Assembly (NCBI GenBank): GCA_947595635.1
Contig: CANQEU010000003.1
Coordinates: 1 to 64,000 of the forward strand
DNA length: 64,000 nucleotides
Source: an uncultured Clostridia bacterium
GTDB taxonomy: Bacteria; Bacillota; Clostridia; Oscillospirales; Acutalibacteraceae
Direction: 5' to 3'
In this document: piece after piece, positions 3,930-43,230 of the stretch
Layout: each line of letters starts with the position of its first letter
Numbering within the stretch: position 1 is the first letter of the stretch
The notes under the pieces: generated by a model
Databases searched by the model: none
What the model saw: only the letters and a program-made list of their open reading frames with translations
Told to the model about the DNA's origin: nothing
Program-made: the position numbers and the translations under genes

Positions 3930-5303
3930 TTGGGACACGAAAGAGAATTTAGCGAAATCACACCTGAAATACTGAAAATGAGCGAGCTTTGCTACAAGAA
4001 CAGCAATATTGATCCGTCTCTTTACACTAAGTATGACGTAAAAAGAGGACTCAGAGACGTAACCGGCGCGGGAGTTCTTACGGGGCTTACCGAAATTTCC
4101 GACGTCTGCGCGGTGAGAGAGCTTCCAAACGGCGAAAGGGTCCCGATTGACGGCGAGCTTTACTATCGCGGATATGAAATTGAGGCAATAGTAGACGGCT
4201 TTATAAAAGACAACCGCTTCGGCTTTGAGGAGGTAACCTACCTTTTGCTTTTCGGTCAGCTTCCGAATGAAAAACAGCTTGACGAATTCCGCAATCTGCT
4301 TGCATATTACCGCTCTCTGCCGATGAGCTTTGTAAGAGATATAATTATGAAAATGCCGAGCAAGGACATTATGAATGCGCTTGCGAGGAGCGTACTCACG
4401 CTTTATTCCTATGACAGCAATCCTGACGACACATCCTTGCCAAACGTCCTTAGACAGTGCATTCAGCTTATATCGCTGTTCCCCATTCTCTCTGTTTACA
4501 GCTTTCAGGCATACGGCTATTTTCACGAAAATAAAAGCCTGTTTATACACAACCCTCAGCCGGAGCTTTCAACGGCTGAAAATATCCTTTATATGCTTCG
4601 CCCCGACAGTAAATACACCCCTCTTGAGGCAAAGCTGCTTGATATGGCTCTTGTTCTTCACGCAGAGCACGGCGGCGGCAATAATTCCACATTTACAACT
4701 CACGTTGTCACCTCCTCTGGCACGGATACATACTCGGCAATAGCCGCTGCGCTCGGCTCTCTTAAGGGGCCTAAGCACGGCGGAGCCAATATAAAGGTCG
4801 CCAAAATGTTTGACGACATAAAGGCGCACGTCAAGGACTTCTACGACGATGAGGAAATCTCAAATTATATAACAAAAATACTGCACAAAGAGGCGTTTGA
4901 CCGCAGCGGACTCATATACGGCATGGGTCACGCAATATATTCTATATCCGACCCGCGCGCGAGAGTTTTAAAGCGCTTTGTTGAGAGGCTTTCAAAGGAA
5001 AAGGGTCGGGAGGACGAGCTTCATCTTTACAACGCGGTATCAAGAATTGCGTCTGAGAAAATCGTAAAGGAGCGCAAGGTATATAAGGGGGTAAGCGCAA
5101 ATATCGACTTTTACAGCGGCTTTGTCTACACAATGCTCGATCTCCCCTATGAGCTTTTTACGCCTCTCTTTGCAATTGCAAGAATCTCCGGCTGGAGCGC
5201 GCATAGAATTGAAGAGCTAATAAGTACCGGCAAGATAATCCGTCCGGCATATATGAATGTTCAAGAGCATCTTGACTACATTGATATGAAGGACCGCAAA
5301 TAA
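3930..5303 (+). CDS. gltA: Citrate synthase
   Basis: It condenses oxaloacetate and acetyl-CoA to citrate and feeds 2-oxoglutarate/glutamate synthesis in anaerobes. The protein is 457 aa. The catalytic pattern of Si-type citrate synthases is visible: HAEHGGGNNST (first His region), GPKHGGAN (second His) and GMGHAIYSISDPR (Asp region). The start appears to be TTG at 3930, 7 nt after AAGGAAGTGAG; no good ATG alternative precedes conserved sequence. It has its own promoter and is closed by the strong hairpin at 5323-5365. Some relatives also use propionyl-CoA (methylcitrate synthase), which the sequence cannot exclude. Confidence 0.93.
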   Translation: MGHEREFSEITPEILKMSELCYKNSNIDPSLYTKYDVKRGLRDVTGAGVLTGLTEISDVCAVRELPNGERVPIDGELYYRGYEIEAIVDGFIKDNRFGFEEVTYLLLFGQLPNEKQLDEFRNLLAYYRSLPMSFVRDIIMKMPSKDIMNALARSVLTLYSYDSNPDDTSLPNVLRQCIQLISLFPILSVYSFQAYGYFHENKSLFIHNPQPELSTAENILYMLRPDSKYTPLEAKLLDMALVLHAEHGGGNNSTFTTHVVTSSGTDTYSAIAAALGSLKGPKHGGANIKVAKMFDDIKAHVKDFYDDEEISNYITKILHKEAFDRSGLIYGMGHAIYSISDPRARVLKRFVERLSKEKGREDELHLYNAVSRIASEKIVKERKVYKGVSANIDFYSGFVYTMLDLPYELFTPLFAIARISGWSAHRIEELISTGKIIRPAYMNVQEHLDYIDMKDRK

Positions 5304-11604: not shown

Positions 11605-12519
11605 TTATTCGGAAAACAGCTTTAAAAATCCGAGCGTTGCCTTTTCCCTTTCTATTTTTCCAAGCCCTATAAATTCTCCTTCCGCTCCGCACACACGCAG
11701 AAGCTCCCCGTCTAAAGCGTTTGTTCCGGCAAGGGCGGTTCTGTTTATGTCAAGTCCGCCTCCGTTTTTAAACCGCTTTGACTGCGCCCTCGTCACGCAT
11801 ATTTTTCTGTAAGGCAGAAATATAGTTTCCGTAGGACGCACAAGAGCGTATAACGCTTCGGCTTCTCCGCTCTGTTTCAGGCTTTTTAGACGCTCAAGCG
11901 ATGAGGAGTCCTCAATAGAATATCCGCAGGCGCGTGTGCGCCTTAACTCTGTCATTACCGCAAACGTGCCGAGAGCCTCGCCAATATCGTCAATAAGCGT
12001 TCTTATGTATGTTCCCTTTGAGCAGGCTACGCCGAGCCTGCCGGTCTGCGTTTTTTCGTCAAAGCCTATAAGCTCAAGCCTGCTTATAACAGCCAATCGC
12101 TTTTCACGCTCAACCTCTATTCCTTGTCTTGCAAGCTCGTAAAGCCTGCGCCCTCCCTGACTTACGGCTGAATACATAGGCGGTATCTGGAATATTTCGC
12201 CCTTGAAGCCGTCAAGCACGGAAAGCATATCTTCAGCGCTTACGCCTGATTTTCTTCTCTCGGTTACAGTGCCGGTTATGTCAAGGGTGTCGGTTCGTAT
12301 GCCGAGCATAAAGTCCGCCTCATATTCCTTTCCGCTTTCCGGCATAAGGCTCTGCGCTTTTGTTGCGTTTCCGAGCAAAACAGGCAGCACGCCTGTCGCC
12401 ATAGGGTCAAGTGTGCCGGTATGTCCGACCTTTTTTGTCTGAAATATACCCCTTACGATTGCAACAACGTCAAACGAGGTCAGCCCCTTGGGCTTATCTA
12501 TCACCAAAACTCCGTTCAC
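11605..12519 (-). CDS. truB: tRNA pseudouridine-55 synthase
   Basis: It converts U55 of the tRNA T-loop to pseudouridine. The protein is 304 aa. The N-terminus MNGVLVIDKPKGLTSFDV and the catalytic motif GHTGTLDPMATGVL (Asp about residue 40) are diagnostic. KGTYIRTLIDDIGEALG is the second conserved block. It follows nrnA by 3 bp in the rbfA-nrnA-truB operon. The usual companion ribF does not follow; 11428-11604 holds no gene. Confidence 0.95.
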   Translation of the reverse strand: MNGVLVIDKPKGLTSFDVVAIVRGIFQTKKVGHTGTLDPMATGVLPVLLGNATKAQSLMPESGKEYEADFMLGIRTDTLDITGTVTERRKSGVSAEDMLSVLDGFKGEIFQIPPMYSAVSQGGRRLYELARQGIEVEREKRLAVISRLELIGFDEKTQTGRLGVACSKGTYIRTLIDDIGEALGTFAVMTELRRTRACGYSIEDSSSLERLKSLKQSGEAEALYALVRPTETIFLPYRKICVTRAQSKRFKNGGGLDINRTALAGTNALDGELLRVCGAEGEFIGLGKIEREKATLGFLKLFSE

Positions 12520-23633: not shown

Positions 23634-23703
23634 CTGCTCGCAAAAAAATTTATATTAATGTCAGCTTTACGGGCGTAAAAACTAAAGCAAGCAAAATTAC
23701 TTA

Positions 23704-23818
23704 TGCGAGAATGATGAGGTGCAGGAGAAGCGAAACTCCTCCTGCAAAAAATAAAACAGTCCCGCTGCACGGCAGCGCTGACTGCGGTTCAAGGATTGCA
23801 TATGCAAAAACGCTTTTA
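23704..23818 (-). repeat. Dispersed 3' hairpin element, copy A
   Basis: It shares TGCGAGAATGATGAGGTGCA and a following block around CTGACTGCGGTTCAAGGATT with copy B (36068-36193); the second block also occurs in copy C (51735-51803). It contains two hairpins, TGCAGGAG/CTCCTGCA and CAGTC..CGCTGC/GCAGCG..GACTG. On the minus strand the second is followed by TTTTATTTTTT, so it may terminate cysS, whose stop codon is about 90 bp away. Confidence 0.8.
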
Positions 23819-34886: not shown

Positions 34887-35558
34887 CTATTTTTCAGCAA
34901 AGCAGCAAAACGTCGGTTTGCCCATTTCCGTAAACATTCTTTCATGCTCGGTCTCATAATTCACAAAGTCAACGGGCAGTTTGTCCGAGGGCTCCGCGTG
35001 AAGATCGTATGATATAAAGCTAAGCTTAAAGCCGCACTGCTTAAAGTATGTAAGGCTTTCCTCAAAAAGCTCCTTGTCGTCCGTTTTAAATCGTATTTCT
35101 CCTCCGTCAACAAGAAATTCCTTATACATTTCAAGCTTTTTCGGAAATGTAAGCCTGCGCTTTTTGTGCTTTGCTCTCGGCCACGGGTTGCAGAAATTTA
35201 TATATATTCTCTCTACCTTGTCATCAGCCTTAAGCACCTTGTCTATCTGCTCTACGTTATATGCCGCAAGAATTATATTGTCAACACTGCGGTTATTTTC
35301 ATCAAACAATTTAACAATTGTTCTTCTGCCAACTCCGAGCATATCGCTTTTTATATCAATAGCAAGATAATTTATGTCGGGGTTTGCAAGCGCGCACCGG
35401 GCTACGAAGCAGCCCTTGCCGCAGCCAAGCTCAACATGAAGCGGCTGATTTTTTTTAAAGCAGGAGCCCCATTTTCCGGCATTGGCGGCAGGCTCCTTTG
35501 CGTAAAATGCGCAAGCGTCAAGCTCGGGCTGAGCCCAAGGCTTTTTTCTTATTCTCAT
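34887..35558 (-). CDS. trmB: tRNA (guanine-N7-)-methyltransferase
   Basis: It methylates G46 in the tRNA variable loop. The protein is 223 aa. The SAM motif is HVELGCGKGCFVA (~43), with later INFCNPWPRAKHKKRRLT (the PWPKxRHxxRR-type signature) and GEIRFKTDDKELFE. It heads the run leading into the lipoprotein and the second two-component system, 27 bp apart. Confidence 0.95.
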   Translation of the reverse strand: MRIRKKPWAQPELDACAFYAKEPAANAGKWGSCFKKNQPLHVELGCGKGCFVARCALANPDINYLAIDIKSDMLGVGRRTIVKLFDENNRSVDNIILAAYNVEQIDKVLKADDKVERIYINFCNPWPRAKHKKRRLTFPKKLEMYKEFLVDGGEIRFKTDDKELFEESLTYFKQCGFKLSFISYDLHAEPSDKLPVDFVNYETEHERMFTEMGKPTFCCFAEK

Positions 35559-35706
35559 TTTGACCCACCGTATAATTTATAATCAATTTATTATATCAAA
35601 ATATTTGCATTATTTCAACGAGGCAGGCAAGAATTAACAAATAGTTTTTTATTCTCGGCATATTGAACGGTACACGTCTGTATTTTTAAGCGCATCGCCC
35701 GTGTAT

Positions 35707-35821
35707 TGCGGCGGCCCGGCGCTGCCTGCGGCAGCGCCACACCGGCAATATCGTCTTTGCCGCGCAGGCAATGACGATATTGCCGGCCGCTTCCTTTTTT
35801 CAAAAGGAAGCGGCCGCCGCA
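35707..35821. other. Cloverleaf-like (four-way junction) element 1
   Basis: A perfect 10-bp closing stem TGCGGCGGCC (35707-35716) / GGCCGCCGCA (35812-35821) encloses three hairpins. These are GGCGCTGCC/GGCAGCGCC (9 bp, triloop, 35718-35738), CCGGCAATATCGTC/GACGATATTGCCGG (14 bp with a further TTGCC/GGCAA inside, 35742-35786) and CGCTTCCTTTT/AAAAGGAAGCG (35788-35812). The closing stem and the third arm share one base. No T-run follows. The same layout with unrelated sequence recurs at 43121-43230. Confidence 0.75.
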
Positions 35822-35855
35822 TAAAAGCAAGCAGTCCTGCGCCGCCGCACACATA

Positions 35856-35884
35856 AGGCTTTCGCACAAAATGTGCGAAAGCCC
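35856..35884. repeat. 29-nt hairpin repeat, copy 1
   Basis: GGCTTTCGCAC and GTGCGAAAGCC form an 11-bp stem around AAAAT. All 29 nt are identical to 36203-36231 in the same orientation. Confidence 0.9.
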
Positions 35885-36067
35885 GAGTTTGTCAATAAAC
35901 ATATTTTTTGATAAGTTATCGCCTGCTACAGCTTTAAAATTAGGTTTTAAACGTGGAGCTGACGCCTACCGTTGCCCTCACTTCCTCTTTAATAGAATTT
36001 TTTAGCTTAAATTCGTTCTGCTAAACTAATTTACGGGTGTAAAAGCTTAATTAAGCAAAATTCTCTG

Positions 36068-36193
36068 TGCGAGAATGATGAGGTGCAGGAGAAGCGAAGC
36101 TTCTCCTGCAAAAAAATAAAATCTTAAGCAGCAGTCCCACTGCACAGCAGTGCTGACTGCGGTTCAAGGATTACATGGACAAAACCGCTTTTT
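36068..36193 (-). repeat. Dispersed 3' hairpin element, copy B
   Basis: It matches copy A (23704-23818) through TGCGAGAATGATGAGGTGCA and GACTGCGGTTCAAGGATT, and copy C (51735-51803) in the second block. Its first hairpin is a perfect 12-bp stem TGCAGGAGAAGC/GCTTCTCCTGCA. The inner stem of the second hairpin is CACTGC/GCAGTG, against CGCTGC/GCAGCG in copy A, a compensatory G-C to A-T change. It lies about 50 bp after the stop of the minus-strand glycosyltransferase. Confidence 0.8.
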
Positions 36194-36202
36194 TACAGAC
36201 TG

Positions 36203-36243: not shown

Positions 36244-37185
36244 TCATTTACTGATTTTCTCAATCGACTCTATAAGATACCTCTGCTTTTTAAAAACAAG
36301 ACTTACAAGCAGAGAAAGATATTTAATTATTATCGTAAGTATCGCAAACACACCGAAAAACGACCCGGTAATAACAAGCATCATTGTTGTAAAGCCCGGC
36401 ACAGGATGCCCCAAGGCAAAAACAAGAAGTGTGTATATTCCTATTCCGACCGTTGCAAATATCATAACAAACGTCAGTATCATAGAGGCGCGGTAGCCTA
36501 TATTTGTAAATAAAATAAGACTGTCAAGCGCCGTTTCATAACGTGAATCATCATTTATATTATCCCGTCTGCTGCGCAGATCGTTTATCGCGTCATAGTG
36601 CAGAGTGTCTATTTTTAAACCGCAGTTGGCATAAAGCGCCTTTCTGTACGGTATGGTCTTGCTCAGCGCGTGGACGCGGTTTATTGCTCTTCTTGACAAA
36701 ATCCTGAAGGACTCGGTCGCAAGCTTGTATTGCGTTTTTGCGCTGTGGTTGTAAAGGCGGTAAAAAAGCCTTGACGACAGCCTCTTTTTGCTGTTGTTTG
36801 CAGCCGCAACTATGTCGTAGCCCTTCAGGGAACGGTAATATATATCCGTTATCACCGACAAATCATAATCTATAACGTCGCTGTCAAATTCATAAACAAA
36901 ATCTCCTATCGAGAGATCCACCCCTGCGTTCATAGACATTTCAAGTCCCTGATAGACTCCCATATTGACAATGCTCAACGGGCAGCTCAGCGAGCTGTTG
37001 CCAAACTCCTTTATTACCTCCGCGCTGCCGTCATACGACGCGTCGTTTACGCAGATTATTTCATATTTCGCAAATGTCTTTGACAGTGTATCATTGACCT
37101 TAGACAAAAAATTTCTAATCGTTTTCTCACAGTTGCGAACATAAACAACGGCTGATATAAAATTCTTTTCCTTGTCATTAACCAT
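36244..37185 (-). CDS. GT2 glycosyltransferase with C-terminal membrane helices
   Basis: The protein is 313 aa. An N-terminal GT-A domain (SAVVYVRNCEKTIRNFLSKV, CVNDASYDGS, and the DxD-like EFDSDVIDYD) is followed by two membrane helices (MILTFVMIFATVGIGIYTLL and MMLVITGSFFGVFAILTIII). That is the layout of GtrB/DPM-type polyprenyl-phosphate sugar synthases. Its start overlaps the FAD oxidoreductase stop by 8 bp. It is the last gene of the 43-to-36.2 kb glycan cluster. The sugar transferred is unknown. Confidence 0.85.
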   Translation of the reverse strand: MVNDKEKNFISAVVYVRNCEKTIRNFLSKVNDTLSKTFAKYEIICVNDASYDGSAEVIKEFGNSSLSCPLSIVNMGVYQGLEMSMNAGVDLSIGDFVYEFDSDVIDYDLSVITDIYYRSLKGYDIVAAANNSKKRLSSRLFYRLYNHSAKTQYKLATESFRILSRRAINRVHALSKTIPYRKALYANCGLKIDTLHYDAINDLRSRRDNINDDSRYETALDSLILFTNIGYRASMILTFVMIFATVGIGIYTLLVFALGHPVPGFTTMMLVITGSFFGVFAILTIIIKYLSLLVSLVFKKQRYLIESIEKISK

Positions 37186-43071: not shown

Positions 43072-43230
43072 GGGCTTTGCGCGGAATGCCCGCTTGTCAG
43101 GCAGACCCTGCCTGCGCTGCAGCCGTCGCTTGGAGCTTCGCTCCTAAGTCCTTCGGCGCAGGATTTTATCCTGCGCCGAAGGACTGCGATGTCCCGACCG
43201 CCAAGGGCGGCTGGGACATCTGCGACGGCT
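43072..43230. other. Cloverleaf-like (four-way junction) element 2
   Basis: A 9-bp closing stem AGCCGTCGC (43121-43129) / GCGACGGCT (43222-43230) encloses three hairpins. These are GGAGC/GCTCC (43132-43144), an 18-bp perfect stem beginning AGTCCTTCGGCGCAGG with a 3-nt loop (43147-43185), and GATGTCCC..CCGCC/GGCGG..GGGACATC (43188-43220, one mismatch and one G.U). Two further hairpins precede it: GGGC/GCCC near 43072 and CAGGCAG/CTGCCTG (43098-43114). The closing stem touches the stop codon of the Mrp gene. The rest of 42976-43071 holds nothing I recognise. Confidence 0.78.

Follow-up and report, generated by a model that had tools for sequence, protein, structure and literature searches.

What is the palindromic segment at positions 35707-35821 of this 64-kb stretch of DNA (the whole stretch that was analyzed, hereafter the window), and does it belong together with a second segment at 43121-43230 that has the same layout and a different sequence? 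An earlier note, made from the letters alone, had suggested that the two are members of a structural family that known feature types do not explain. Our results, namely further copies in the same genome, copies in relatives, and negative tests for known classes, support that claim and point to a repeat family that is defined by shape and kept paired through simultaneous changes on both sides of its stems.

Structure and genomic setting of the element

The element is located approximately 150 bp upstream of a trmB-like gene. The features considered here are as follows.

34887..35558, minus strand: trmB-like gene (open reading frame), outside the element
35707..35821, no strand assigned: whole three-armed cloverleaf, type B (fold, descriptor scan, and covariance model)
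35707..35716, no strand assigned: 5' side of the closing stem, TGCGGCGGCC, perfect complement of 35812-35821
35718..35738, no strand assigned: arm 1, 9 bp, tip GCTGCCTGCGGCAGC (fold and scan)
35742..35786, no strand assigned: arm 2 (long), 14 bp plus one mismatch and an inner 5 bp
35789..35811, no strand assigned: arm 3, 10 bp (fold and scan)
35812..35821, no strand assigned: 3' side of the closing stem, GGCCGCCGCA, pairs with 35707-35716
36244..37185, minus strand: glycosyltransferase-like gene (open reading frame; the name is our reading), outside the element
43121..43230, no strand assigned: type-A cloverleaf, the second one in the window (fold z = -10.9, type-A pattern, and alignment A2)

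The product of 34887..35558 is predicted, by similarity and from our own reading of the open reading frame, to be a tRNA guanine-N7-methyltransferase.

The structure at 35707-35821 was confirmed as real. Its minimum free energy as DNA is -60.9 kcal/mol, compared with -33.2 ± 3.1 kcal/mol for 200 dinucleotide shuffles (z = -8.9), and folding it as RNA gave z = -9.25. The perfect 10-bp closing stem and the near lack of unpaired junction bases described in the earlier note are both present (gaps of 0-3 nt), as are the first two arms at the stated lengths of 9 and 14 plus 5 bp. The third arm, described as 11 bp, has 10 bp; the longer figure arises because this arm can take 1-2 bp from the closing stem. 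Arm 1 with its tip is an arm that recurs among the type-B elements described below. The folds also agree with the claim of a layout common to both window elements (closing stem, then short, long, and medium arms), and the open reading frames place both in gaps between minus-strand genes.

By trmB, the closest named relative is Ruminococcus sp. zg-924. At the trmB loci of four same-genus genomes (G002, G003, G004, and G005; approximately 3.5 kb each, with 73-78% trmB identity), we found neither a cloverleaf nor a match to the neighboring glycosyltransferase-like gene. The copy upstream of trmB is therefore specific to its own lineage at this site.

A second, unrelated repeat family lies directly beside the cloverleaf, at 35940-36200 of the window, and occurs also at 23666-23817. 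The repeat of 35940-36200 has 57 matches in its own genome with identity up to 93%, some of them in tight groups (e.g., C5, C13, C36, and C42), and on both strands its fold is more stable than those of shuffles (z = -4.3 and -5.5). G002 and G005 have approximately 40 matches each, and G001, G003, and G004 have none; the type-B cloverleaf has the same species distribution.

Copies in the same genome

The scans used a descriptor based on structure only, i.e., a closing stem of at least 8 enclosing hairpins with arms of at least 5 and gaps of at most 5; for these scans, the genome of the window and those of its relatives were sampled in stretches. Exactly two cloverleaves were returned in the window, namely 35707-35821 and 43121-43230. 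The window together with 400 kb more of this genome contained six convincing cloverleaves and two AT-rich or terminator-like matches (L007 and L011), and three shuffled sets of these 464 kb contained none. Another 387 kb provided four more convincing cloverleaves, and a version of the scanner allowing longer middle loops added a few. The genome-wide descriptor search that the earlier note had proposed, run here on 851 kb, thus gave approximately 12 elements against none in shuffles.

Two sequence types, A and B, are found in this genome, distinguished by closing stems and arm tips that are conserved within each type. In type A, the short arm reads GGAGC-TTC-GCTCC and the closing stem resembles CCGTCGC/GCGACGG; a genome-wide pattern search found 12 loci, of which two are decayed and one is 43121-43230. 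Among 99 other genomes of the taxonomic family, the 14-base type-A arm pattern was found in only one, which is of the same genus. Type B, to which 35707-35821 belongs, has closing stems similar to GGCGGCGACC/GGTCGCCGCC and nine matches in this genome by the type-B covariance model. The sequences of the window pair had been called unrelated; they do differ from each other, but they are not arbitrary, as each falls in its own conserved sequence type.

Expansion in related genomes

In two genomes of the same genus, G002 and G005, the scanner found 85 matches in 745 kb and none in shuffles. Reading all copies of the type-B end in these 745 kb added five elements whose middle loop is longer and revealed no half elements. 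A covariance model (R1) was built on 30 type-B copies from G002 and G005, with no sequence from the window. It has at least 150 matches in each of these two genomes and none in G001, G003, and G004 (same genus) or in G006 and G044. Species of one genus differ in the copy number of one type, from no detected copy up to at least 150. In the window, the sole place matched by R1 is 35702-35826 (33.1 bits; E = 6e-4 on the plus strand and 1e-3 on the minus strand in 64 kb). Our element therefore belongs to the family that has expanded in G002 and G005, as a diverged member. The earlier note had also considered that the window pair might be the only two in their genome and lack conservation in relatives, and the counts of approximately 12 in the former and at least 150 in each of two of the latter speak otherwise.

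In the canonical order of the expanded type, the conserved closing stem is followed by an arm of 13 bp (GCAAATTTCCGCC), a middle arm (GAAAAACGCGGCG) whose loop of approximately 30 nt is highly variable, and an arm of 7 bp (GCGCGGC). About half of the copies are flanked by an outer inverted repeat, GGCTGYCGC, whose distance of 41-48 bp varies little; with this repeat, a copy has a total length of approximately 235 bp. The regions between outer repeat and core differ between the two sides, with CTCGTTTT..TGTGC on one and TTCTCGG..TTGAGCGGGAG on the other. With a recurrent motif of its own on each flank, the expanded-type element possesses an orientation. In one type-B copy (L210:17419-17581), arm 3 is tandemly duplicated, which creates a fourth arm.

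Further sequence types with the same layout were found in G004 (two in L252), G044 (two in L276), and an uncultured Clostridiales genome (five in 20.6 kb of L046). In L276, which comes from another genus, the cloverleaf copies at 4329-4470 and 11623-11835 have a similar long middle loop in opposite orientation relative to the strand. A survey of 1.24 Mb around trmB of 80 relatives found only the five cloverleaves of L046 plus two AT-rich matches.

These counts bear on the simplest alternative, that the cloverleaf is a chance product or consists of ordinary hairpins or terminators side by side. Other hairpins do occur close to the element (around 35858-35885 and 36085), and the scan did catch the few AT-rich or terminator-like combinations mentioned above. 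Nevertheless, no cloverleaf was returned by the descriptor from the shuffles, from 150 kb of E. coli K-12, or from 761 kb of viral loci, and closing stems and arm tips are shared among copies. Intrinsic terminators were also rejected, as a T-rich tract adjoins, on either side, only 4 of 109 elements. The family counts have already refuted this alternative, and we give it almost no credence.

Two further observations concern the searches themselves. The match L265:17-370 is a CRISPR-like array with partly palindromic repeats and represents a false positive of the descriptor. The 14-base type-B end is present in IMG/VR contigs; carriage by viruses was rejected, as the descriptor found no cloverleaf in the 80 viral loci covered.

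Changes between orthologous copies

The genomes G002 and G005 are approximately 93% identical and syntenic in the compared stretches, and each of the 15 sites that allow comparison carries an element in both. Many of the genomes were assembled from metagenomes; that two assemblies agree at orthologous sites speaks against an assembly artefact. In 11 orthologous elements compared pair by pair, 505 stem pairs are unchanged, 14 have changed on both sides, two on a single side, and one otherwise, and 53 stem pairs were gained or lost whole. A separate count from BLAST alignments, which did not demand that the second species fold, gave 16 double and 6 single changes in element hairpins versus 1 double and 22 single changes in 24 non-element hairpins of the same alignments (Fisher p = 1.7e-6). 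When 30 type-B and 10 type-A copies were aligned, both-sided changes were likewise many and one-sided changes few. One whole element is inverted between the two species (L194:16029 and L214:2728). At another site (L195:10143-10289 and L209:12109-12257), the orthologous core is kept between flanks that both differ, as would be expected if the element were a rearrangement breakpoint.

Such paired changes would be explained by template switching at hairpins or by arm swapping among copies. Template switching reportedly both generates hairpins and preserves them (PMC8794818), and it is reported to homogenize the arms of inverted repeats and to invert spacers (PMC8604942). Whole-arm exchange between copies would also yield paired changes.

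DNA-level or RNA-level pairing

The stems of the 109 elements are almost purely Watson-Crick, with 5,147 such pairs, 7 G-T, 5 A-C, and 18 other mismatches. The scanner penalizes every mismatch equally and favors perfect stems, and part of the shortage of mismatches is thus a product of construction; the near parity of G-T and A-C is not. G-U pairs are normal in RNA stems. The elements show no sign of a preferred strand, and the strand of the neighboring genes is irrelevant for the family as a whole, unlike the minus-strand setting of both window elements. By simple ORF calling, which makes these counts approximate, the 102 elements with usable neighbors lie in 72 co-directional, 19 convergent, and 11 divergent gaps, compared with 324, 79, and 79 among all gaps; three further elements overlap long ORFs. 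Relative to co-directional genes, type-B elements are oriented in the same direction in 22 cases and in the opposite direction in 18. The near parity of G-T and A-C and the lack of an orientation preference both favor a DNA-level feature.

A structured non-coding RNA family, with transcribed copies and a cloverleaf selected as RNA, would account for the extreme RNA folding energy, for sequence that covaries with pairing, and for the orientation that conserved motifs between outer repeat and core give to the expanded type. Against it stand the G-T pairs that are no commoner than A-C in more than 5,000 pairs, the gene orientations without preference, and the range of copy number within one genus. 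Moreover, an Rfam search of the window and three relatives' loci gave only sub-threshold chance matches at the elements. We consider an RNA family improbable; the pairing appears to be kept in DNA rather than selected as RNA.

Possible routes of maintenance and spread

We regard it as probable that these cloverleaves form a dispersed family of non-coding DNA repeats, most of them intergenic, in which the fold itself is what is conserved, and that the following mechanism keeps it. The arms would fold once one strand is single, at a replication fork or upon cruciform extrusion. DNA synthesis that switches its template within a hairpin, or recombination between two copies, would then replace both sides of an arm together and might sometimes flip the element, such that pairing is maintained while the sequence drifts. 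The copy numbers suggest that the element may be a non-autonomous mobile element that multiplies within its genome, possibly with the help of a host or transposon protein that recognizes the folded junction, including the conserved closing stem and arm tips.

A related possibility, which we hold only tentatively, puts mobility first: a mobile DNA element recognized and inherited by its folded shape, copied or moved single-stranded by a junction-recognizing enzyme or by the replication machinery, with template-switched arms that let the sequence drift. With empty sites at 0 of 15, the comparison of G002 and G005 gives no case of recent mobility. Direct repeats of at least 4 nt beside the core ends are absent at 107 of the 109 elements, no target duplication outside the outer repeat was seen by eye (uncounted), and no autonomous relative with the same ends was found in the 745 kb of G002 and G005. 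Matches to the Y1 transposase family PF01797 number two in each of G000, G003, and G004, one in G002, and none in G001 and G005. This transposase is an improbable mobilizer, as gene counts do not track copy number; the G005 assembly, which is 87% complete, has at least 150 type-B copies and no PF01797 match. Loss of SbcCD as a cause of palindrome tolerance was rejected, as SbcD is found in G000 to G006 and G044. In the genome of L046, SbcD had no match.

The cloverleaves may alternatively be selected DNA sites, i.e., a useful chromosomal structure (for the nucleoid, supercoiling, or recombination) in which selection rather than mutation bias keeps the pairing. Consistent with this, nearly all copies in the 745 kb of G002 and G005 are intact, every comparable orthologous site is filled, and closing stem and tips are conserved inside a type. 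The near absence of decayed copies in these two species could indeed reflect selection on a useful structure, besides mutation bias. However, three same-genus genomes (G001, G003, and G004) lack any type-B match and type A is nearly limited to one species, both of which are odd for a needed site; type A also has two decayed copies, and selection alone would leave single-sided intermediates, which we found to be rare. We consider this explanation unlikely and favor the shape-defined repeat family maintained by paired replacement of its arms.

Comparison with known systems

Dispersed palindromic repeats are common in bacteria. As summarized in PMC3733652, REPs are single hairpins of 20-40 bp with a GTAG or CGTC tag. 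Like the REP/BIME sequences in the accounts of PMC3733652, PMC2817692, and PMC12306157, the cloverleaves are short intergenic palindromic DNA repeats with many copies and strong copy-number differences among relatives. They differ in forming one element of 100-160 bp with a closing stem and three arms, and in a copy number that Y1 transposase genes do not follow. The tag is also lacking, with GTAG within 10 nt of the core in 0 of 109 elements and CGTC in 3 of 109.

MITEs share with the cloverleaves a non-coding nature, dispersal, and inverted repeats at the ends, the latter in about half of the expanded type (PMC10969869; PMC2229807). The differences are an inner three-armed structure with paired changes, core ends beside which no target duplication was seen, and the lack of any related transposase or empty site in our searches. 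The attC sites of integrons conserve a folded structure over variable sequence, as the cloverleaves do; an attC site is one imperfect hairpin, whereas a cloverleaf has three arms. Integron attC sites were rejected, with the end pair RYYYAAC / GTTRRRY in 0 of 109 elements.

Our literature search on cloverleaf, nested-palindrome, and Ruminococcaceae palindromic repeats found nothing matching among the papers searched. We found no description of a three-armed cloverleaf family with a common shape and with sequences that differ between sister species. The elements may also mark rearrangement points, given one orthologous copy with different flanks and another that is inverted.

The closest parallel in process is evolution by template switching, which, as presented in PMC8794818 and PMC8604942, predicts arm homogenization, multi-base paired changes, and spacer inversion, all of which are seen in the cloverleaves. 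What these two papers treat is a mutation mechanism, in RNA genes and in coding DNA of yeast, rather than a family of repeats. The evolution of paired stems has so far been debated mainly from RNA genes, at least as PMC8794818 frames it. With at least 150 natural copies per genome in two close species, the cloverleaves provide a system for measuring how perfectly paired stems evolve and for testing if a repeat family can be defined by structure alone.
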